Positions 37,582 through 46,523 of a stretch of DNA of 64,000 nt are shown in pieces (positions within the stretch are counted from its first letter, which is position 1; every line of letters starts with the position of its first letter). The DNA lies in NCBI GenBank assembly GCA_020160935.1, contig JAIUPL010000021.1, forward strand, positions 1 to 64,000. The letters run 5' to 3'. The DNA comes from Bacteroidota bacterium (GTDB lineage Bacteria > Bacteroidota > Bacteroidia > Chitinophagales > Saprospiraceae). The notes under the pieces were generated by a model, which was not told the origin of the DNA, searched no databases, and worked only from the letters and a program-made list of their open reading frames with translations. Made by a program: the position numbers and the translations under genes.

Positions 37582-37612
37582 TTTGGTACCCTGAATAACG
37601 ACACTACCTTTG
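37582..37612 (+). promoter_or_regulatory. Full -33/-7 promoter: TTTG, 19-base spacer, TACCTTTG
   Basis: TTTG (37582-37585) and TACCTTTG (37605-37612) match both Bacteroidota elements at the usual spacing. Only 6 bases separate the box from the ATG at 37619, which predicts a leaderless or near-leaderless mRNA. Confidence 0.7.
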
Positions 37613-37618
37613 CGCCCT

Positions 37619-38179
37619 ATGACACAAACCACGCTACTAGAACACCTGGAAAAGGAACTCCGGTACTGCCTTGATATCGTTCGCAACCAAATTGCCACCC
37701 AGAATACGGCCGTTTTGCAGGCACGCACAAGCCCCGAACACTGGAATGCGCTGGAATGTTTTGCGCACCTGAACGCTTACCTGGAGCGTTACATTCCACG
37801 TATGGAACTTTCCATCCACAAAGCCAAGGCGCGGGAATGGAAGACGGTAGACGATGTGAATTACAGCGGCGCTGGCAAGAGGTTTATCAAACACGCAGAT
37901 CCTGAAAACCGGAAGGCGTACAAATCACCCAAATATTACAATTTCTGGCAAAAAGACGTTGGTATTGCCGCATTGAAAGGCTTTACCATCAATACGGAAC
38001 GACTGCTCCGGGTGATTCAGGCGGCTAAAGAAGTGAACCTCAACAAGGCAAAAGTGGGTCGCGGCAAATCAGGATTTTTCAGCCTTTCCCTAGGGAATAC
38101 ACTCGAATGGCAGGTATTGCACATCCAACGACACATCCATCAAATTCAGGCACAAATCGTGCAACTGCAAAACCATTGA
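37619..38179 (+). CDS. DinB-superfamily protein
   Basis: 186 residues forming a four-helix-bundle DinB/DUF664-like protein: LLEHLEKELRYCLDIVRNQ, TSPEHWNALECFAHLNAYLERYIPRM (His of the metal site), and the C-terminal LGNTLEWQVLHIQRHIHQIQAQI with the usual HxxRHxxQ pattern. Members may use bacillithiol-type thiols or bind metal; the exact role is unknown. The start at MTQTTLL fits the promoter 6 bases upstream. A small hairpin with a U run follows the stop. Confidence 0.85.
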   Translation: MTQTTLLEHLEKELRYCLDIVRNQIATQNTAVLQARTSPEHWNALECFAHLNAYLERYIPRMELSIHKAKAREWKTVDDVNYSGAGKRFIKHADPENRKAYKSPKYYNFWQKDVGIAALKGFTINTERLLRVIQAAKEVNLNKAKVGRGKSGFFSLSLGNTLEWQVLHIQRHIHQIQAQIVQLQNH

Positions 38180-38211: not shown

Positions 38212-38242
38212 TTGCAGCATTCAATTCTACCTCTTACGTTTG
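38212..38242 (+). promoter_or_regulatory. Promoter of the Phe/Tyr leader and pheA operon
   Basis: TTG (38212-38214) as -33 element, a 20-base spacer, then the exact -7 box TACGTTTG (38235-38242). Predicted transcription starts near 38247, about 23 bases before the leader ATG. Confidence 0.75.
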
Positions 38243-38269
38243 CAGCGTAACAGTACAACAGTACACCGC

Positions 38270-38362
38270 ATGAGCAACAGCCGCGCATTTTATTTTGGTT
38301 TCTTTTTTTACTATTTCTTTTTTGGAAAAAGGAAAAGGAACTACCTGTGCGTGTCAGTATAA
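38270..38362 (+). CDS. Phe/Tyr-rich leader peptide of the aromatic operon attenuator
   Basis: A 30-codon ORF, ATG to TAA. Residues 7-18 read FYFGFFFYYFFF: eight Phe and three Tyr in twelve positions, with another Tyr at residue 25. The N-terminal MSNSRA and C-terminal KRKRNYLCVSV parts are ordinary. It lies between an exact -7 box promoter and a perfect intrinsic terminator, directly before the Phe/Tyr biosynthesis operon. By analogy to the pheL/trpL mechanism, its translation rate reports charged tRNA-Phe and tRNA-Tyr: stalling at the run would favour the antiterminator, and smooth reading the terminator. The peptide itself probably has no other function. It was found by reading; it is far below usual gene-calling length limits. 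Confidence 0.88.
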   Translation: MSNSRAFYFGFFFYYFFFGKRKRNYLCVSV

Positions 38363-38398
38363 ATAACAAACTGAATATCAACAGACAAGGGAGTTCCT
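38336..38398 (+). promoter_or_regulatory. Antiterminator pairing of the pheA attenuator
   Basis: AGGAACT (38336-38342) is a perfect complement of AGTTCCT (38392-38398) in the 5' arm of the terminator. After one mismatch, CC (38344-38345) pairs with GG (38389-38390). The 5' strand begins 12 bases after the last codon of the main aromatic run. A ribosome stalled in that run leaves part or all of it free, depending on the codon, whereas one at the leader stop (38360-38362) would cover or abut it. This alternative fold would prevent the terminator. Confidence 0.7.
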
Positions 38399-38423
38399 GA
38401 ACGACAGGAACTCCCTTTTTTTT
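38387..38423 (+). terminator. Attenuator terminator before pheA
   Basis: A perfect 13-bp stem AAGGGAGTTCCTG (38387-38399) / CAGGAACTCCCTT (38405-38417) with loop AACGA. The T run spans 38416-38423, so the last two stem bases are part of it. It starts 24 bases after the leader stop and ends 18 bases before the pheA ATG, so any transcript of the operon must pass it. Confidence 0.92.
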
Positions 38424-38441
38424 GGCCTACAAACTGCAACA

Positions 38442-39338
38442 ATGTCCGACTCAGCCATGCCGTCAACGACGGCCACAACACAAAAACTGACACCCGAGCC
38501 CGCCATACCGGGCCAGCGAATTGCCATTCAGGGCGTGCGTGGTGCTTTTCACGAAATTGCAGCCCGTCATTTTTTCGGTGAGCAGATAGAAGTAATCCCC
38601 GCTTTGTCGTTTCCAATTTTATTTGATAAAACTGCCGATGCGGCGCAAACCGATGCGGCGATTCTGGCTATAGAAAACAGCATTGCAGGAAGCATCCTGG
38701 GCAACTACAAATTGCTTGAAAACAGCAACCTGGTTGTCGTGGGTGAAGTGTATTTGCGCATACAACAGAATTTGCTGGCGCTTCCAGGTGTATCCATCGA
38801 TCAAATCCGCGAAGTGCACTCTCATCCGATGGCCCTGGCACAATGTGCCGAATTTTTTAAACAATACCCGCGTATTCGCCTCGTCGAATCGGAAGATACC
38901 GCCGAAAGTGCAGCCCGTATCGTTCGGCATCGCGCCATTCATATCGGCGCAATAGCCAGCACATTGGCAGCCAATATTTACGGTTTGAATGTGCTTGCCC
39001 CTGCTATTGAAACGGTACCGGAAAATTTTACCCGCTTCCTCGCTGTACGGCGCAAACATGATGCCGAGCCTGTGCAGCATGCCGACAAGGCCTCCGTTTG
39101 TTTCAGTGCAGGCCACCAGCCCGGAAGCCTGGCCCTCGTGCTCACCTTGCTGGCCACCGAAGGCGCCAACCTGACCAAAATACAGTCGGCACCACTCCTG
39201 GGACGCCCCTGGGAGTATCGATTTTTTGTCGATTTCACGGCAATTCCCGACAGAATTCCGGAAGTACTTCAACTACTCGAACAAAGTACCACCGATTTAC
39301 AGGTATTAGGTGTCTACCGGGAAGGAGAACAATACTAG
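38442..39338 (+). CDS. pheA: Prephenate dehydratase with ACT domain
   Basis: 298 residues. After a ~25-residue leader-like N-terminus, the PDT domain begins RIAIQGVRGAFHEIAARHFF, with AAILAIENSIAGSILGNYKLL and the catalytic Thr-Arg-Phe motif ENFTRFLAV. The C-terminal ACT domain (PGSLALVLTLLATEGANLTK, then IQSAP) normally senses Phe. It lacks a chorismate mutase domain; that activity is supplied by the fourth gene of the operon. The usual ESRP sequence of the ACT site reads QSAP here, so feedback may be altered. It is the first gene of the attenuator-controlled operon. Confidence 0.94.
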   Translation: MSDSAMPSTTATTQKLTPEPAIPGQRIAIQGVRGAFHEIAARHFFGEQIEVIPALSFPILFDKTADAAQTDAAILAIENSIAGSILGNYKLLENSNLVVVGEVYLRIQQNLLALPGVSIDQIREVHSHPMALAQCAEFFKQYPRIRLVESEDTAESAARIVRHRAIHIGAIASTLAANIYGLNVLAPAIETVPENFTRFLAVRRKHDAEPVQHADKASVCFSAGHQPGSLALVLTLLATEGANLTKIQSAPLLGRPWEYRFFVDFTAIPDRIPEVLQLLEQSTTDLQVLGVYREGEQY

Positions 39339-39381: not shown

Positions 39382-40545
39382 ATGATACAACCTGCCAAAC
39401 GCCTCGATACCGTCAACGAATACTACTTCGCAGGCAAACTGCGCGAAATTGCTCAAATGCAAAAGGAAGGCAAACCGGTGCTCAACCTCGGCATCGGAAG
39501 CCCTGACCAGCCGCCCCACCCTGCCGTGCTGGAAGCACTGCAAAACGGCGCTGCCCAACCCAAAGCACACGGCTACCAATCTTACACCGGTATTCCGGCA
39601 TTGAGAGAGGCCTGGGCAGCCTGGTATTCGCAGTTCTATGGTGTTGCCTTAAATCCTGACAATCAAATACTTCCGTTGATTGGCTCCAAAGAAGGCATCG
39701 TGCATGTGGCGATGGCATTTCTGGAGCCCGGCGATGTAGCACTGGTTCCGAATCCCGGTTATCCGGCCTACTCTGCGGCTACCCAACTGGCAGGTGCGTC
39801 TGTGCAGTTATATGACCTGAGTGAGTCGTCGGGCCGGTTGCCGGATTTGAAACAACTGGAAAGCACAGACCTCAGCCAGGTGAAACTCATGTGGGTCAAC
39901 TACCCCCACATGCCTACGGGCGAGCCGGGTTCAGCGGATATATTTCAAATGCTGGTGGATTTTGGAAAAAAACACAACATCCTGATTGTCAATGATAATC
40001 CCTACAGTTTTATCCTGAATGAACATCCTCGTAGCATTCTGGCAGCCCATGGAGCGGAAGATATTGCGCTGGAACTCAATTCCCTTTCCAAATCGCACAA
40101 TATGGCCGGCTGGCGCGTAGGCATGGTGGCCGGCCACCCCGAATACCTGAAATCGGTGCTTCGATTCAAAAGCAATATGGATTCCGGGCAGTTTCAACCG
40201 GTTCAACTGGCGGCAGTACAGGCACTACATTTACCGGCAGCATGGTATCAGTCGCTGAACGATATGTATCGCGAGCGGCAAAAAGTGGCCTTCCGGATTT
40301 TGGAAAGCCTGGATTGCGTGTTCAATCCTCAACAGCAGGGCATGTTCGTTTGGGCAAAAATTCCGGATCATTATGCCGATGGGTACGCTTTAAGCGATGA
40401 ATTGCTGTATGAACGACATGTATTTCTGACGCCAGGCGGAATTTTTGGTTCCAATGGCAACCGTTTTGTACGCATATCCTTGTGCAGTGATGTTGCTACC
40501 CTTCAAACTGCTCTCCATCAAATTCAAAACGCCCTCTCTGTATGA
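39382..40545 (+). CDS. Class I/II aminotransferase of the Phe/Tyr operon
   Basis: 387 residues, fold-type I PLP enzyme: LNLGIGSPDQPPHPAVLEAL, YTGIPALREAWAAWY, LIGSKEGIVHVAMAF, NYPHMPTGEPGS (aromatic/Asn region), NDNPYSFIL and the PLP-lysine motif LNSLSKSHNMAGWRVGM. From context it most likely transaminates phenylpyruvate and 4-hydroxyphenylpyruvate (or prephenate) to the amino acids. Sequence alone does not prove specificity: it also resembles LL-diaminopimelate aminotransferase-like enzymes. It starts 43 bases after pheA and overlaps tyrA by four bases (ATGA). Confidence 0.88.
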   Translation: MIQPAKRLDTVNEYYFAGKLREIAQMQKEGKPVLNLGIGSPDQPPHPAVLEALQNGAAQPKAHGYQSYTGIPALREAWAAWYSQFYGVALNPDNQILPLIGSKEGIVHVAMAFLEPGDVALVPNPGYPAYSAATQLAGASVQLYDLSESSGRLPDLKQLESTDLSQVKLMWVNYPHMPTGEPGSADIFQMLVDFGKKHNILIVNDNPYSFILNEHPRSILAAHGAEDIALELNSLSKSHNMAGWRVGMVAGHPEYLKSVLRFKSNMDSGQFQPVQLAAVQALHLPAAWYQSLNDMYRERQKVAFRILESLDCVFNPQQQGMFVWAKIPDHYADGYALSDELLYERHVFLTPGGIFGSNGNRFVRISLCSDVATLQTALHQIQNALSV

Positions 40546-41393
40546 CCATCACGATAATCGGGCCCGGTTTGATCGGCGGTTCGCTCGCAATGGGCCTACG
40601 GGAAAATGGTTTTGCCAGCCGACTGATCGGCGTCGACAACAAACCAGAAAATGCACAAAAGGCGCTGGAATTGGGACTGGTGGATGAAGTTCTTCCACTT
40701 CAGGAAGCCGTTGCTGCCAGTCGCATGATTGTCGTTGCAACGCCGGTGGACAGCCTGACCGCATTGATTCCTCAGGTACTTGATCTGGTGGATGCTCAAA
40801 AAGTTGTGCTGGATGTTGGCTCTACCAAAATACCGGTGCTGGAAGCCGTCGAGCACCACCCCAACAGGGCGCGTTTTGTGGCTACCCACCCTATGGCAGG
40901 TACGGAATATTCTGGCCCGGGTGCTGCTATTAGAGGACTGTTCGACGGAAAATGTTGCGTTTTCAGTGATGTAGAAAAAAGCGACGCGGAGGCCGTTTAC
41001 CTCTGCCGAAGCATGTATGAATCCCTGGGGATGCACATAAATTTTCTGGAAGGCGCTGCACACGACCTGCACGTGGCATATGTGAGCCATATTTCTCACA
41101 TTGCATCTTTTGCGCTGGCATTGACCGTTCTGGAAAAAGAGAAAAACGAAGACCGCATTTTTGAACTTGCAAGTGGTGGTTTTAACAGTACCGTTCGTCT
41201 GGCAAAAAGCAGCCCGGCCACCTGGGTGCCTATTTTCAGGCAGAACCGCGACAATGTGCTGGACGTACTGGACGAATTTATCAATACCATTAGTCGTTTT
41301 CGGACGCTTCTGATAAAAAAAGACTTCGATACGTTTGGTAACCTGATTCAGCAAGCCAATGATATCCGACGAATAATAGACCCCAAAACCTGA
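40542..41393 (+). CDS. tyrA: Prephenate dehydrogenase
   Basis: 283 residues. The NAD(P)-binding glycine motif ITIIGPGLIGGSLAMGL opens the protein. DVGSTKIPVLEAV and the catalytic THPMAGTEYSGPGAA segment follow, and the helical C-terminal domain contains HDLHVAYVSHISHIASFALA and GGFNSTVRLAKSSPATW. It makes 4-hydroxyphenylpyruvate, the Tyr precursor, from prephenate. No ACT domain is appended, so regulation may rest on the operon's attenuator. Translationally coupled to the aminotransferase gene. Confidence 0.94.
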   Translation: MTITIIGPGLIGGSLAMGLRENGFASRLIGVDNKPENAQKALELGLVDEVLPLQEAVAASRMIVVATPVDSLTALIPQVLDLVDAQKVVLDVGSTKIPVLEAVEHHPNRARFVATHPMAGTEYSGPGAAIRGLFDGKCCVFSDVEKSDAEAVYLCRSMYESLGMHINFLEGAAHDLHVAYVSHISHIASFALALTVLEKEKNEDRIFELASGGFNSTVRLAKSSPATWVPIFRQNRDNVLDVLDEFINTISRFRTLLIKKDFDTFGNLIQQANDIRRIIDPKT

Positions 41394-41431
41394 CGAATTG
41401 CTCATTTCTCACTATCTCATAATTGTTTGCC

Positions 41432-42502
41432 ATGTTCACGAAAAAAAATAACCGCCCCTTCCTGATTGCCGGCCCCTGCTCGGCAGAGACGGAAGAACAA
41501 GTAATTACAACCGCCCGGGGATTGAAAGACCTGGGTATCGACCTGTTTCGCTCAGGAGTGTGGAAGCCCCGTACGCGTCCAGGCGCATTTGAAGGCAATG
41601 GCGCTCAGGCACTCCCCTGGCTGCGACTGGTAAAACAGGAAACCGGAATGAAAACCACCATCGAGGTGGCTACCGGTAATCAGGTGTACGAAGCACTCAA
41701 GCACGGCGTAGACGTACTCTGGGTAGGCGCTCGCAGCACTGTGAATCCTTTTTCCGTACAGGAAATTGCAGATGCCCTGAAAGGCGTGGATGTGCCTGTA
41801 CTGGTGAAAAACCCTGTTAACCCCGACCTTGACCTTTGGGTAGGTGCCATCGAACGCATTAGAAATGCTGGCGTTACAAATATTGGCGCCATTCACCGCG
41901 GTTTTTCTGCTTATGCCAAATCAAAATTTCGCAATGCGCCGTACTGGGAAATTCCGATCGAATTGCGTCGCAGAATGCCGGAATTGCCCCTGATTTGCGA
42001 CAATTCGCACATCTGTGGCAACCGCGAAGACCTGCTCGAAGTAGCCCAGCAAGCGCTTGACCTCAACTACGACGGCCTCATGACGGAAGTACACCCGACA
42101 CCGGATGCCGCCTGGAGCGATGCCAAGCAGCAAATTACGCCGTTTACTTATGCCGAACTGGTGGCCAGCCTGATTGTACGTCGGGAAACTACCGATAATG
42201 CCGAGTTTCTGGAAAACATTGAAAACCTGCGCCACAAAATTGACGAAATCGACCTGGAATTGCTCAACCTGCTTTCCCGTCGTATGCGCGTAGCGGAAGA
42301 CATCGGTCGCTACAAACTCCGCAACAACATCTCCATCCTGCAGTCGGTGCGCTGGAACGAAATCCTGGAAAGAGGTTTTGCACAAGGCCGGCAGCGTGGT
42401 TTGAACGACGAGTTTATTGAAAAATTCCTTTCTGCGGTACACAACGAAAGTATTGCACACCAGCAGACAGTGATGCATCCGGCAGTTGAAAAGGAGGCAT
42501 AA
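41432..42502 (+). CDS. Bifunctional DAHP synthase / chorismate mutase
   Basis: 356 residues. The N-terminal ~255 residues are a type I DAHP synthase barrel (FLIAGPCSAETEEQV, LFRSGVWKPRTRPGAFEG, VGARSTVNPFSVQEIA, PVLVKNPVNPDLDLWVGAIER, IGAIHRGF, LPLICDNSHICGNRE, DGLMTEVHPTPDAAWSD). The C-terminal ~90 residues are an AroQ chorismate mutase (NLRHKIDEIDLELLNLLSRRM, AEDIGRYKLRNNISILQSVRW). It performs the first shikimate step and the branch-point step to prephenate. ATG 41432 is preferred to an upstream in-frame TTG. Last gene of the operon; no strong terminator follows (only a 7-bp palindrome at 42578-42598). Confidence 0.94.
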   Translation: MFTKKNNRPFLIAGPCSAETEEQVITTARGLKDLGIDLFRSGVWKPRTRPGAFEGNGAQALPWLRLVKQETGMKTTIEVATGNQVYEALKHGVDVLWVGARSTVNPFSVQEIADALKGVDVPVLVKNPVNPDLDLWVGAIERIRNAGVTNIGAIHRGFSAYAKSKFRNAPYWEIPIELRRRMPELPLICDNSHICGNREDLLEVAQQALDLNYDGLMTEVHPTPDAAWSDAKQQITPFTYAELVASLIVRRETTDNAEFLENIENLRHKIDEIDLELLNLLSRRMRVAEDIGRYKLRNNISILQSVRWNEILERGFAQGRQRGLNDEFIEKFLSAVHNESIAHQQTVMHPAVEKEA

Positions 42503-42698: not shown

Positions 42699-44264
42699 TC
42701 AATTTGCGGCTAAAGGTTGGGGCTGATCAAGGATGGAAGACAAACCCATTTTTTCCAGCAACAATTCTGTCAGTGTTTCATACGGTATTACTTCAATGGC
42801 AAAATACTGGCGTGCAATTTCGGGCGTTTGGCTTTTGATACTGGCAAATTCCCGGTTTATCTTTTTCTTGTGGTTAACAGTTAGGTGGGGGTATTGTGCC
42901 AGTGTCATCACGATTCTGAAAAAACTGTTGCTGCGGCTATTCAGGTCATTGGCCAGCCAACGTTGGCGGTATTTTTCCAATGCTTCCACTGGAATTTCTT
43001 TGGCAGGCTTGCCAGCGCCTTGCGTGAGTTCGTACAACACCGGTAGAAGGATGAGCGGGATATTCATACCTTCTTTGTCTTTTTTGAGTACCTCGATTTC
43101 GTTGAAGAGTTTGCTGTAGCGGAACTTTCCGGCTACAGATTCTACTTCTTGAGGGTCGAGTTGGTTGAGTTGGGCAAGGAGGTGGAGGTAGCCGCCGAGG
43201 AGAAGCCAGTTGTCGTGGTAGATTCCTTCAACAGGAAACAATCGACAATCTACAAAAGTTTCATTATATATTTTTAGACTTTTATGATATTGCAGAGTAT
43301 AGCAACAATAGTAGAAGTATACTTCATTAAAACGAACCCAATTGAAATTATCAGCATCACGATACTCGTGAAAATACAAAAGCAACTTATTTATTTCATT
43401 AGTATCGTTCACCCTAAGGTGAGTAAAGCAAGACATTTTTTGTATGGCTATATTCAAAATCATTGTACGATTGGTATTCTTCTTTTTCACTAAATAATCA
43501 AGCATTATGCTACATTGTTCAAGCGCTTCACAAATTCTATTTACAGAAAATAAGTGAATTAATCGAATAGAATATGTATAAAAGTAAAAGGCAGAAGTGT
43601 TTATTAATTTAACAAAAGGATGAAGTTTTTCAAAATAATTGATGGCTTTGTATGAAGTTTCATGATCAGGCGATCTTTTCACAAAAAAATCTTCTATTAG
43701 TGTTTCGTAATAATCAGATGCCATGCTTTCATAATTTTTTATTTTCTCAAGATCTCGATTTAAATCTGTGTAATGTTGACATTTAGCCAAATTAGAAGAC
43801 CGCCTTTTGAATTCATTTCTGAGTAATTTAGATACATCTACTGCAATGTCAACGAATTCATATTTCATTGCCTGTTCTAGTACATCCTCCAATATTATGA
43901 TTGCTGGTCTCGTACACTTTCTAGCATATAAAATGATGGCAGTAGCATAATCTTTTCTAGTTGAATAGTATGCTTTAACCCTATCAGTAGGCATAAGATG
44001 GTTAATATCAACAAAGAATGTAAGCGTTTTTAGTTGTTGTATTAATCTATTTTTAAGTTTCAGGTAAGCAGGGTACTTAACATCATATGATTTAAATAAT
44101 TTCCTTACAGCCTCTTTCTCTGTGTAAACTTTATCATCAAGTAATATTTGTAAAAATTGCTCAGTTTTATTTTTTTTATTTTTGTTAGTATTAATAAGTT
44201 GAATTTCTTTTGAAAGGTTTTTATTTAAAAACCTGGCAAGTTCCTTAAGGTTATCAAAATCCAT
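42699..44264 (-). CDS. Large helical protein of unknown function, paralogue A
   Basis: 521 residues from MDFDNLKELARF, the start shared with its neighbour; an ATG at 44306 would add 14 residues. I recognise no family. It is predominantly helical with TPR-like spacing, has no signal peptide or membrane segment, and is rich in Tyr, Asn and Lys. It aligns along its length with the next gene: LKNRLIQQLKTLTFFVDIN, ARKCTRPAIIILEDVLEQAMKYEF, YHDNWLLLGGYLHLLAQL, FNEIEVLKKDKEGMNIPL, LEKYRQRWLANDLNSRSNSF, EVIPYETLTELL. The first two thirds of the gene are strikingly AT-rich, while the last third (42699-43250) has normal composition, which suggests a mosaic origin. Confidence 0.8.
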   Translation of the reverse strand: MDFDNLKELARFLNKNLSKEIQLINTNKNKKNKTEQFLQILLDDKVYTEKEAVRKLFKSYDVKYPAYLKLKNRLIQQLKTLTFFVDINHLMPTDRVKAYYSTRKDYATAIILYARKCTRPAIIILEDVLEQAMKYEFVDIAVDVSKLLRNEFKRRSSNLAKCQHYTDLNRDLEKIKNYESMASDYYETLIEDFFVKRSPDHETSYKAINYFEKLHPFVKLINTSAFYFYTYSIRLIHLFSVNRICEALEQCSIMLDYLVKKKNTNRTMILNIAIQKMSCFTHLRVNDTNEINKLLLYFHEYRDADNFNWVRFNEVYFYYCCYTLQYHKSLKIYNETFVDCRLFPVEGIYHDNWLLLGGYLHLLAQLNQLDPQEVESVAGKFRYSKLFNEIEVLKKDKEGMNIPLILLPVLYELTQGAGKPAKEIPVEALEKYRQRWLANDLNSRSNSFFRIVMTLAQYPHLTVNHKKKINREFASIKSQTPEIARQYFAIEVIPYETLTELLLEKMGLSSILDQPQPLAAN

Positions 44265-44353
44265 AGCGTGTAAGATTATTGGTGAAGAGTTGTTGTTTTT
44301 TGACATGTAAAGTTAAAAACACTCCTCAATAATACAAACACCAGTAATAAATA

Positions 44354-45871
44354 TTATTTTTTGTTATTCAAAAGTTCCCAAAGTGTTTCATAGGGAATTA
44401 TCTCTACTGCGAAATTTTGCCCTGCTACTTCTGGTGTTTCATTCTTTAAAATTTCCAGTTCTTTGTTGATTTTTTTCTCTGCTGCAGCTGAAGAATAGTC
44501 CTTTTTGGCAAAGGCAATCAGCATTTTTAAAAAACTGTCACTACGACGATTCATATCATTGGCCAGCCAGCGTTGGCGATACTTTTCAAGGGCGTCGATA
44601 GAAATATCTTTTTGATCATCGAAAGATTTTTGTGCCAAATGGAAAAGGATAGGAAGCAAGACGAGTGGTATGTTCATACCTTCTTTATCTTTGTCGAGTA
44701 CCTCAATTTCGTTGAAGAACTTGCCCAATCGGATGCTGCCTACTACTGGTTCTACTTCTTCGGGCTTTAATGCTCCTAGTTTTGAAAGAAGGTGTAAGTA
44801 GCCTCCAAGAAGGAGCCAATTATCATGATGACTGCCATCTAACAAGCCAAAGTTAGTTGATTTAGTTACTTTTTGATATACATTTAAAGCGTTCATATAT
44901 TTTTTCGAATAGGTACAATGATAAAAATAAACTTCATGAACTTTAAACCAGTTGAAATCTTGATCTTCAAGATTATTCAAACAATAATTAAACAAACTTT
45001 CAAACTCGTCTACATCATTCATTCTCAATTGATTATAAAATGCCATTTTTTGCATTGTAAAATTTACCAATGTGCTACGATTTGTATTTTTTCTTGGAAC
45101 AAGTATTTCTAAAGCATGATTAGTTAAATTCAATGCTTTTTCAATGTCATTTATTGACGAATATTTAATTAGACCAATATAATAAGTATAACTATGAAAT
45201 GCTGATGTATCTACGATACTAATTAGTGGTAACAATTCTTCAAAATACTCAGCGGCTTTCTTGTGAATTAATTCGTTGGGTGAACGTTTAGTAAGATAAT
45301 AACTTACTAATTCTTCATAGTAATCAATTGCCATTGATTCATACCTTCTCTTTTCTTCATATTTCCTATGTAAGTTTGTGTAATACTGATTTTTTTCATG
45401 GTCTCCACCACCACGTGCATATTGGCGCCGCAAAATCCTAGATACATCTGCTGCCAAATCAATAAACTCGTACTTTATTGCTTGTTCGAGTACTAATTGA
45501 AAAATATAGATGCCTGACTTATCTGCATTTCTTGTCATGAAAACGACACCTGCAGCAAAATCACGGTATGCTGTAAAGTAAGCTTTTGCTCTTTCGTTAA
45601 AGGCAGGTTGATTCACATCGACAAAAAACGCGGTATTGATTAGTTGCCTGATCAACTTATTCTTGAGTTTCCTGTAGTTTGGGTCTTTTGAGTCACTTTT
45701 GAAAAAAAACTTTGCCACATCATCCTCTGACTTGAACTTCCCTGAACTGATGCCATCGTACATCAATTCTGTTCGGCTTTTCTCCTCCCCCGGGTTTCCC
45801 AGCACCTCAATGCTTTTTATTTTATTCCGGGTAATGGTCTGTACCAGGTCTTTCAGTACATCAAAATCCAT
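44354..45871 (-). CDS. Large helical protein of unknown function, paralogue B
   Basis: 505 residues from MDFDVLKDLVQTI; the further upstream in-frame start is only a TTG at 45889. It is a paralogue of the gene 89 bases downstream on the same strand: LKNKLIRQLINTAFFVDVN, LVLEQAIKYEFIDLAADVSRILRRQY, YHCTYSKKYMNALNVYQ, HHDNWLLLGGYLHLLSKLGALKPEEVEPVVGS, FNEIEVLDKDKEGMNIPLVLL, ALEKYRQRWLANDMNRRSDSF, FAVEIIPYETLWELL. No signal peptide, membrane helix or catalytic motif is visible. Composition is AT-rich over most of its length. The two genes look like a tandem duplication. Function unknown; a helical-repeat scaffold is my inference. Confidence 0.8.
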   Translation of the reverse strand: MDFDVLKDLVQTITRNKIKSIEVLGNPGEEKSRTELMYDGISSGKFKSEDDVAKFFFKSDSKDPNYRKLKNKLIRQLINTAFFVDVNQPAFNERAKAYFTAYRDFAAGVVFMTRNADKSGIYIFQLVLEQAIKYEFIDLAADVSRILRRQYARGGGDHEKNQYYTNLHRKYEEKRRYESMAIDYYEELVSYYLTKRSPNELIHKKAAEYFEELLPLISIVDTSAFHSYTYYIGLIKYSSINDIEKALNLTNHALEILVPRKNTNRSTLVNFTMQKMAFYNQLRMNDVDEFESLFNYCLNNLEDQDFNWFKVHEVYFYHCTYSKKYMNALNVYQKVTKSTNFGLLDGSHHDNWLLLGGYLHLLSKLGALKPEEVEPVVGSIRLGKFFNEIEVLDKDKEGMNIPLVLLPILFHLAQKSFDDQKDISIDALEKYRQRWLANDMNRRSDSFLKMLIAFAKKDYSSAAAEKKINKELEILKNETPEVAGQNFAVEIIPYETLWELLNNKK

Positions 45872-46523
45872 AGTATAAAAAATTGACAATCAAATAATTA
45901 AGTGCAAAAACAGTCAATCTGCCCGGGTCAAAACGATGTAAAGTGTCCTTGTCAGGTTCATCCCGCTGTTATCATATTTGCACTGTCAACAATTCACCAA
46001 CAATCACCACGCCTTCGGTTCCGACAGCACAAAGTTAGTAAAAAAACAACACGGGTTGACGGAACAGCTAAAATGAACACTATGCAAATGTAAAACAATC
46101 TTAATCAAGCATTTAAACGCAATAAAAATCAAAATACGTCGCGTTTATGATCAATCTGACCGGATTGAAAAGGGGAGTTTTGTCCTTTTTTGAAGGGTAG
46201 GCTCGCCGGACTTTTGTGCCAGGATTTCAATCTAACACAAAATCATTCCCGGTCATGCCTATCATATTCTTCATCATCAGCCTGTTCCTCGCAAACCAAA
46301 ACGCAATCACAATTTCCCCAAAAGGGAATGGTACTACTATCCAAAAAACAGTTAAGAATACAGGAGAACCAACTGGTAGCGAAGATTTTATTATTGGGAA
46401 TGACATCAATCCATAATTACCCAATATTCTGTTTCAAAGAACTTTTCCGGGCCCCCGCCCCGAAACTCGAATATAATCTGTTCAAGATTAATAAGATATT
46501 TTGCTTCGTTTATCTTCCCTTGG

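Follow-up and report, generated by a model that had tools for sequence, protein, structure and literature searches.

In the enterobacterial pheL and trpL systems, a short leader ORF carrying runs of codons for the end product lies in an RNA that can form 1:2, 2:3 and 3:4 pairings and contains an intrinsic terminator. Attenuation of the E. coli trp operon has been outlined in a paper that also describes the tandem attenuator ORFs in the single leader RNA of Salmonella mgtCBR, which sense ATP and proline (PMC3641672). In a 2010 terminator survey, leader-peptide systems were known to the authors solely from Proteobacteria and Actinobacteria before their own Firmicutes case (PMC2965389); a survey of leader genes (PMC4833913) and a motif list that includes an actinobacterial pheA motif (PMC2864571) are also available.

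The literature found for Bacteroidota gives hints only of leader-peptide attenuation. A map of B. thetaiotaomicron contains short ORFs reminiscent of leader peptides (PMC7366714), and a Flavobacterium psychrophilum transcriptome paper describes structured, conserved 5' elements ahead of pheA and hisG and sees 'strong clues' that operons for amino acids are preceded by leader-peptide attenuation (PMC9723704). In view of the latter paper, the original prediction, which had presented the element analysed here as extending a mechanism best documented in Proteobacteria, overstated its novelty for the phylum.

The window analysed is a 64,000-nucleotide stretch of a Saprospiraceae genome, in which positions 38212-38423 very probably (roughly 0.93), as judged from sequence and folding models, constitute a ribosome-mediated (leader-peptide) transcription attenuator for a Phe/Tyr operon. 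Together with its relatives, this element provides strong sequence evidence that, in a branch of Bacteroidota, Phe/Tyr operons are controlled by leader-peptide attenuation, as are, under less strict criteria, those for His, Trp and Ile/Val.

Leader region and operon in the window

The region before pheA contains a leader ORF rich in product codons, a terminator between leader and pheA, and a helix that excludes the terminator (Table 1). The promoter-like pair, the 30-codon Phe/Tyr leader, the 13-bp terminator with its U run and the mutually exclusive antiterminator described in the original prediction were all found in place, ahead of the four genes that it had named.

Table 1. Features of the attenuator and of the operon that follows it in the window.
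Feature	Coordinates	Strand	Basis
Promoter-like pair: TTG (38212-38214), 20-nt spacer, TACGTTTG (38235-38242)	38212..38242	+	Sequence
Leader ORF, 30 codons + stop; ATG at 38270, TAA at 38360-38362	38270..38362	+	ORF translation; kept in L148-L152, L154, L155, L163
Regulatory codons, leader residues 7-18 = FYFGFFFYYFFF, Phe/Tyr 11/12	38288..38323	+	Sequence; family leader codon counts
1:2 hairpin, U-rich Phe/Tyr codons with purine-rich segment 2, -12.3 kcal/mol	38297..38342	+	Folding
Segment 2, 5' half of antiterminator	38336..38345	+	Pairing, folding
Segment 3, common to terminator and antiterminator	38389..38398	+	Pairing
Intrinsic terminator: 13-bp stem 38387-38417 (-22.0 kcal/mol) and U run	38387..38423	+	Sequence, folding
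pheA, prephenate dehydratase	38442..39338	+	Pfam PDT 3.4e-53; best NCBIfam match 190.8 bits, below model cut-off 219
Class I/II aminotransferase gene	39382..40545	+	Pfam PF00155 9.3e-56
tyrA, prephenate dehydrogenase	40542..41393	+	NF006307 340.1 bits, cut-off 295
DAHP synthase/chorismate mutase fusion, TTG start as listed	41423..42502	+	Pfam PF00793 and PF01817; NF009239 177.5 bits, below cut-off 279

The promoter-like pair, which we take to be of the -33/-7 type of Bacteroidota, is absent from the listing of a sigma-70 consensus scan; transcription would start at about 38248. Between this pair and the leader start lies a GTAC-AACA-GTAC repeat (about 38253-38264), a potential 4-bp hairpin, of which AGTAC and the second TAC are invariant across a nine-sequence alignment of the window's clade. 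The leader peptide of 30 residues is MSNSRAFYFGFFFYYFFFGKRKRNYLCVSV (translation of 38270-38362), and its frame continues through segment 2, as in several other leaders, many elements instead stopping just 5' of that segment.

The terminator consists of 13 uninterrupted pairs around a 5-nt loop, with a T run up to 38423. In the antiterminator, AGGAACT at 38336-38342 complements AGTTCCT at 38392-38398 within the 5' arm of the terminator, and after a bulge CC at 38344-38345 pairs with GG at 38390-38391. The fold of 38240-38442 reaches -61.5 kcal/mol against a mean of -38.6 (z -6.2), a value equalled by none of 200 dinucleotide shuffles. Folded without a ribosome, the antiterminator (-17.0 kcal/mol) and a shorter 1:2 hairpin can form before segment 4 has been made, and the full terminator is preferred once it has.

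In the proposed mechanism, a ribosome would translate the leader while RNA polymerase moves ahead. With charged tRNA-Phe and tRNA-Tyr in ample supply, the ribosome would reach the stop codon and segment 2 would be unavailable, allowing the 13-bp terminator to form and ending transcription at about 38423. Were Phe or Tyr short, it would stall on the Phe/Tyr codons and mask segment 1, so that segment 2 could pair with segment 3 and the polymerase could enter pheA, the aminotransferase gene, tyrA and the DAHP synthase/chorismate mutase gene.

An aminotransferase gene follows pheA at 72 of 79 family loci; for the product of the window's gene, the 25 best NCBIfam matches all fall below cut-off, and its putative substrate is taken from the operon context. 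Beyond the operon, on the minus strand, lie two adjacent genes for proteins of 535 aa (42699-44306) and 511 aa (44354-45889), which share 45% identity and have no Pfam match at E 0.001.

Conservation, antiterminator pairing and codon content

PheA matches were found in 80 of 120 family genomes, giving 79 loci for analysis (window included), 77 of them with at least 300 nt upstream. The detector required six or more F/Y within 10 residues of an ORF 10-45 codons long, and an intrinsic terminator no more than 100 nt away. Such a unit precedes pheA at 66 of the 77 loci, the window counted (38 single, 28 double, 11 none), as against 0/770 dinucleotide-shuffled upstream regions and 0/1,966 other 600-nt chunks of the relatives' loci. 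On both strands of the window (424 overlapping 600-nt chunks), the detector returned this element and one other match, with a TTG start on the minus strand. At least three of the 11 detector-negative loci (L041, L048, L053) have F/Y ORFs that were left unpaired with a terminator, and inspection by eye found two units at L029, where the detector had scored one, and at L048, where it had scored none. In a set of 80 public records that overlaps the family genomes, the 77 with enough upstream DNA comprised 46 single, 24 double and 7 without a unit.

The 40 family genomes without a PheA match include the sole same-genus genome (G040, 3.6 Mb, listed as 100% complete), which also has no hisG or ilvD match, a pattern that suggests amino acid auxotrophy.

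A single leader of the window's design occurs in L148 (PheA identity 93%), L149 (79%), L150 (70%), L151, L152, L154, L155 and L163. Retention in relatives had been proposed as a check on the original prediction, and leader ORF, terminator and antiterminator are kept in 8/8 close named relatives. The hairpin could instead be a mere terminator of the upstream DinB-like gene (37610-38179), which ends at 38179 on the same strand, the F/Y ORF being a chance reading of a leader region that is indeed T-rich. This is very improbable, because among 79 stretches only the window's own gave a match to the DinB-like gene and the unit was found at 66 of 77 pheA loci, so that the unit goes with pheA and not with the DinB-like gene; moreover, the promoter-like pair separates that gene from the leader, and shuffled DNA gave no units.

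Across 94 family elements, the 5' arm of the terminator scored a mean of 16.55 against its best complement near the stop codon of its own leader and 13.02 when arms of other elements were used; the former mean was reached by 0/10,000 permutations, which ignore shared ancestry. On this measure the antiterminator covaries across the family. In 55 of the 94, the complement starts 1-5 nt downstream of the stop codon's first base, and in tandem genomes the own pairing was better than the swapped one in 21 of 28, worse in 3 and tied in 4. Within the window's own clade, the nine-sequence alignment retains the majority of the antiterminator pairs (in some cases as G-U), shows a single C-U mismatch and lacks a T-A pair in 6/9 sequences; here the pairing is conserved and does not covary.

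All 94 leaders contain both Phe and Tyr. Their in-frame codons include 453 for Phe (347 TTT, 106 TTC) and 308 for Tyr (185 TAT, 123 TAC) and only 34 TTA or TTG (12 and 22), whereas the +1 frame holds 72 TTA and 57 stops and the +2 frame 228 TTA and 128 stops, a contrast that is partly built in, the ORFs having been picked for F/Y content. Independently of T-richness, F/Y leaders are retained at loci of 0.56-0.67 G+C. These data bear on the idea that the U-rich tract is selected for its RNA pairing, with the F/Y codons a by-product. The 1:2 hairpin of the window does pair U-rich with purine-rich RNA, and some residues at leader ends track RNA pairing and not peptide sequence, yet the rarity of TTA and TTG and the abundance of TAT and TAC in frame (a comparison biased by the F/Y selection of ORFs), together with the persistence of F/Y leaders in GC-rich genomes, make the idea scarcely credible.

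Stalling at these codons was modelled by masking a 30-nt ribosome footprint and folding the RNA as far as mid-terminator. With an F/Y codon in the A site, segment 3 paired upstream over 8.7 nt in the family and 9.3 nt in the window, against 4.7 and 1.4 nt with the ribosome at the stop codon. Modelled Phe/Tyr stalling favoured the antiterminator in 87 of 94 elements and acted in the opposite direction in 7, a result that is partly geometric, as a ribosome at the stop codon covers any nearby segment 2 by construction. The attenuation mechanism put forward for the locus thus draws support from family-wide antiterminator covariation and from a compatible folding model.

Serial units and the stop-codon hairpin in relatives

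The window itself holds a single unit. At 28 of the 77 family loci, among them L003-L007, L030, L032, L158 (Flavilitoribacter nigricans DSM 23189) and L186 (Phaeodactylibacter xiamenensis KD52), the detector found two complete leader-terminator units of the Phe/Tyr type one after the other, and each of the two has an antiterminator of its own. The second leader begins a median of 26 nt past terminator 1, which frequently leaves too little room for a whole promoter. Of the 38 single elements, 24 have an exact TAnnTTTG, with TTG 17-23 nt further upstream, ahead of the leader; in tandems this pair lies ahead of leader 1 in 25 of 28 and in the gap between terminator 1 and leader 2 in 0/28. A wider promoter scan, covering leader 1, terminator 1 and the gap up to leader 2, gave 1/28 (L026, 17-nt spacer), or 5/28 with one mismatch allowed, against 26/28 upstream of leader 1; the tandems among public records have the promoter before leader 1 in 23/24 and in the gap 0/24 exact and one weaker match. 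To judge from these motifs, tandems nearly always have a recognisable promoter before the first unit only.

With single leaders left out as neighbours, the nearest element in other genomes was a first leader for 25 of 28 first leaders and a second leader for 18 of 28 second leaders, and a leader's own tandem partner was its nearest element in just 2 of 56 cases, which speaks for an old tandem arrangement and leaves recent duplication unsupported as its origin. A quick-method PheA tree of 78 rows, with 10 of 75 inner branches starred, is too weakly resolved for placing gains and losses of the second unit. Division of labour, one leader for Phe and the other for Tyr, was also considered and found unsupported, the means being 4.6 F and 3.0 Y in first leaders and 4.8 F and 3.8 Y in second leaders.

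In a second family of the class (f9), two F/Y leader ORFs occur at 5 of 26 loci (3/3 in genus g222, 2/5 in g128), at each of which the detector scored one complete unit, the other terminator being imperfect; L098 and L107 (g128) show two F/Y leader ORFs by eye, and the other 18 loci (g220, g221, g223) have one leader at most. Before leader 1 of the seven doubled f9 loci, the exact promoter was found in 0/7 and a one-mismatch form with TTG in 6/7. Two units are likewise present in L198, a record titled Chitinophaga niabensis MAG. Outside family f1, a looser threshold gave units at 22 of 39 order- or class-level loci and 2 of 25 phylum-level loci fetched; among these loci, which are part of all matches, the detector found no doubled units.

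Some leaders end in a further structure. In 62 of 161 pooled distinct elements (for example L026, L030, L032 and L161), five pairs join the region of the last Tyr-Gly codons (e.g. TAYGG) to the last sense codon and the UA of the stop (e.g. CCRTA), and in many such units this hairpin sits immediately 5' of segment 2. When the 5' arm is displaced by -6 to +2 nt, no more than 5 elements remain. The three inner pairs exceed permutation (114 vs 70.3, sd 4.9; 108 vs 77.0, sd 4.8; 95 vs 60.3, sd 5.7) and the outer two show no excess; the hairpin was spotted by eye before testing, and the permutations ignore ancestry. Some changes hit both arms and alter the peptide, as from Gly-x-Pro to Ala-x-Ala. 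First leaders have the hairpin in 29 of 44 cases, second leaders in 22 of 43 and single leaders in 11 of 74; the window, with just four weak pairs, lies outside the 62. A search for a fixed pause sequence 3' of the hairpin gave nothing beyond the purines of segment 2 and the later T tract. A stalling signal at terminal proline, in which 34 of 94 leaders end, was set aside because these positions covary as an RNA hairpin, switching residue when the pairing partner changes.

Taken together, the observations make it fairly probable that the pheA leader of Saprospiraceae and of part of the second family is a serial attenuator, in many units of which the stop-codon hairpin may replace the long 1:2 hairpin of the window as a compact element for polymerase pausing or antiterminator stacking. 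One promoter would be followed by two complete, long-separated Phe/Tyr units, the polymerase would need release twice by the same starvation signal, and multiplication of the two read-through fractions would give a steeper response. No same-amino-acid tandem attenuators were met in the full-text literature searched, most subscription papers being outside its reach. As far as sequence comparison goes, the window's element is of the pheL/trpL type, and the serial version in its relatives is the unexpected part that deserves work; its presence in named strains makes the gain from a second copy of the same attenuator a testable question.

Other amino acid operons and known systems

In the family, hisG is preceded by a leader of matching codons at 25 of 28 loci, trpE at 27 of 30 and ilvD at 14 of 30 (L228-L317). 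These counts come from simple thresholds with no separate null, and one extra trpE match is false. Doubled units occur at two hisG loci (L245, L253) and one ilvD locus (L302). The window's own genome (L228/L321) has a His leader before hisG, and no leader was found there before its two trpE-like genes or ilvD. Permutation, again ignoring ancestry, supports antiterminator pairing for His (1/10,000; 27 elements) and Ile/Val (0/10,000; 15 elements); the 27 Trp elements gave no covariation signal (6,298/10,000 permutations as high), perhaps owing to terminators that hardly vary. Matching codon runs bear on a further alternative, in which the leader works as a riboswitch, a T-box or a protein-bound attenuator and its ORF is incidental. 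A terminator/antiterminator pair would suit any sensor, but Rfam gave no family at gathering score in the window or in seven tandem loci, the codon run is the conserved part, and His, Trp and Ile/Val operons have other codon runs that match their products, all of which renders this alternative highly unlikely.

Read as a leader-peptide attenuator, the window's element resembles enterobacterial pheL-pheA and trpL-trp in its short ORF of end-product codons, its 1:2, 2:3 and 3:4 pairings and its terminator before biosynthetic genes. It differs from them in mixing Phe and Tyr codons, in serving an operon for both amino acids and in its Bacteroidota-type promoter. Compared with the Rfam family Phe_leader (RF01859), the window scored 19.5 bits against a threshold of 55 (E 0.78), with no significant similarity; the element would work like pheL but lies outside that sequence family.

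The elements of Flavobacterium psychrophilum belong to the same phylum and precede the same genes; unlike the present family, they are described, in the accessible part of that paper, without a pheA leader sequence or mention of tandem units (PMC9723704). Salmonella mgtCBR likewise has two attenuator ORFs in one leader, as in the tandem relatives of the window, but according to the accessible text its ORFs respond to different signals and lack recognisable intrinsic terminators, whereas both units of the tandems in these relatives are of the Phe/Tyr type and have terminators of their own (PMC3641672).
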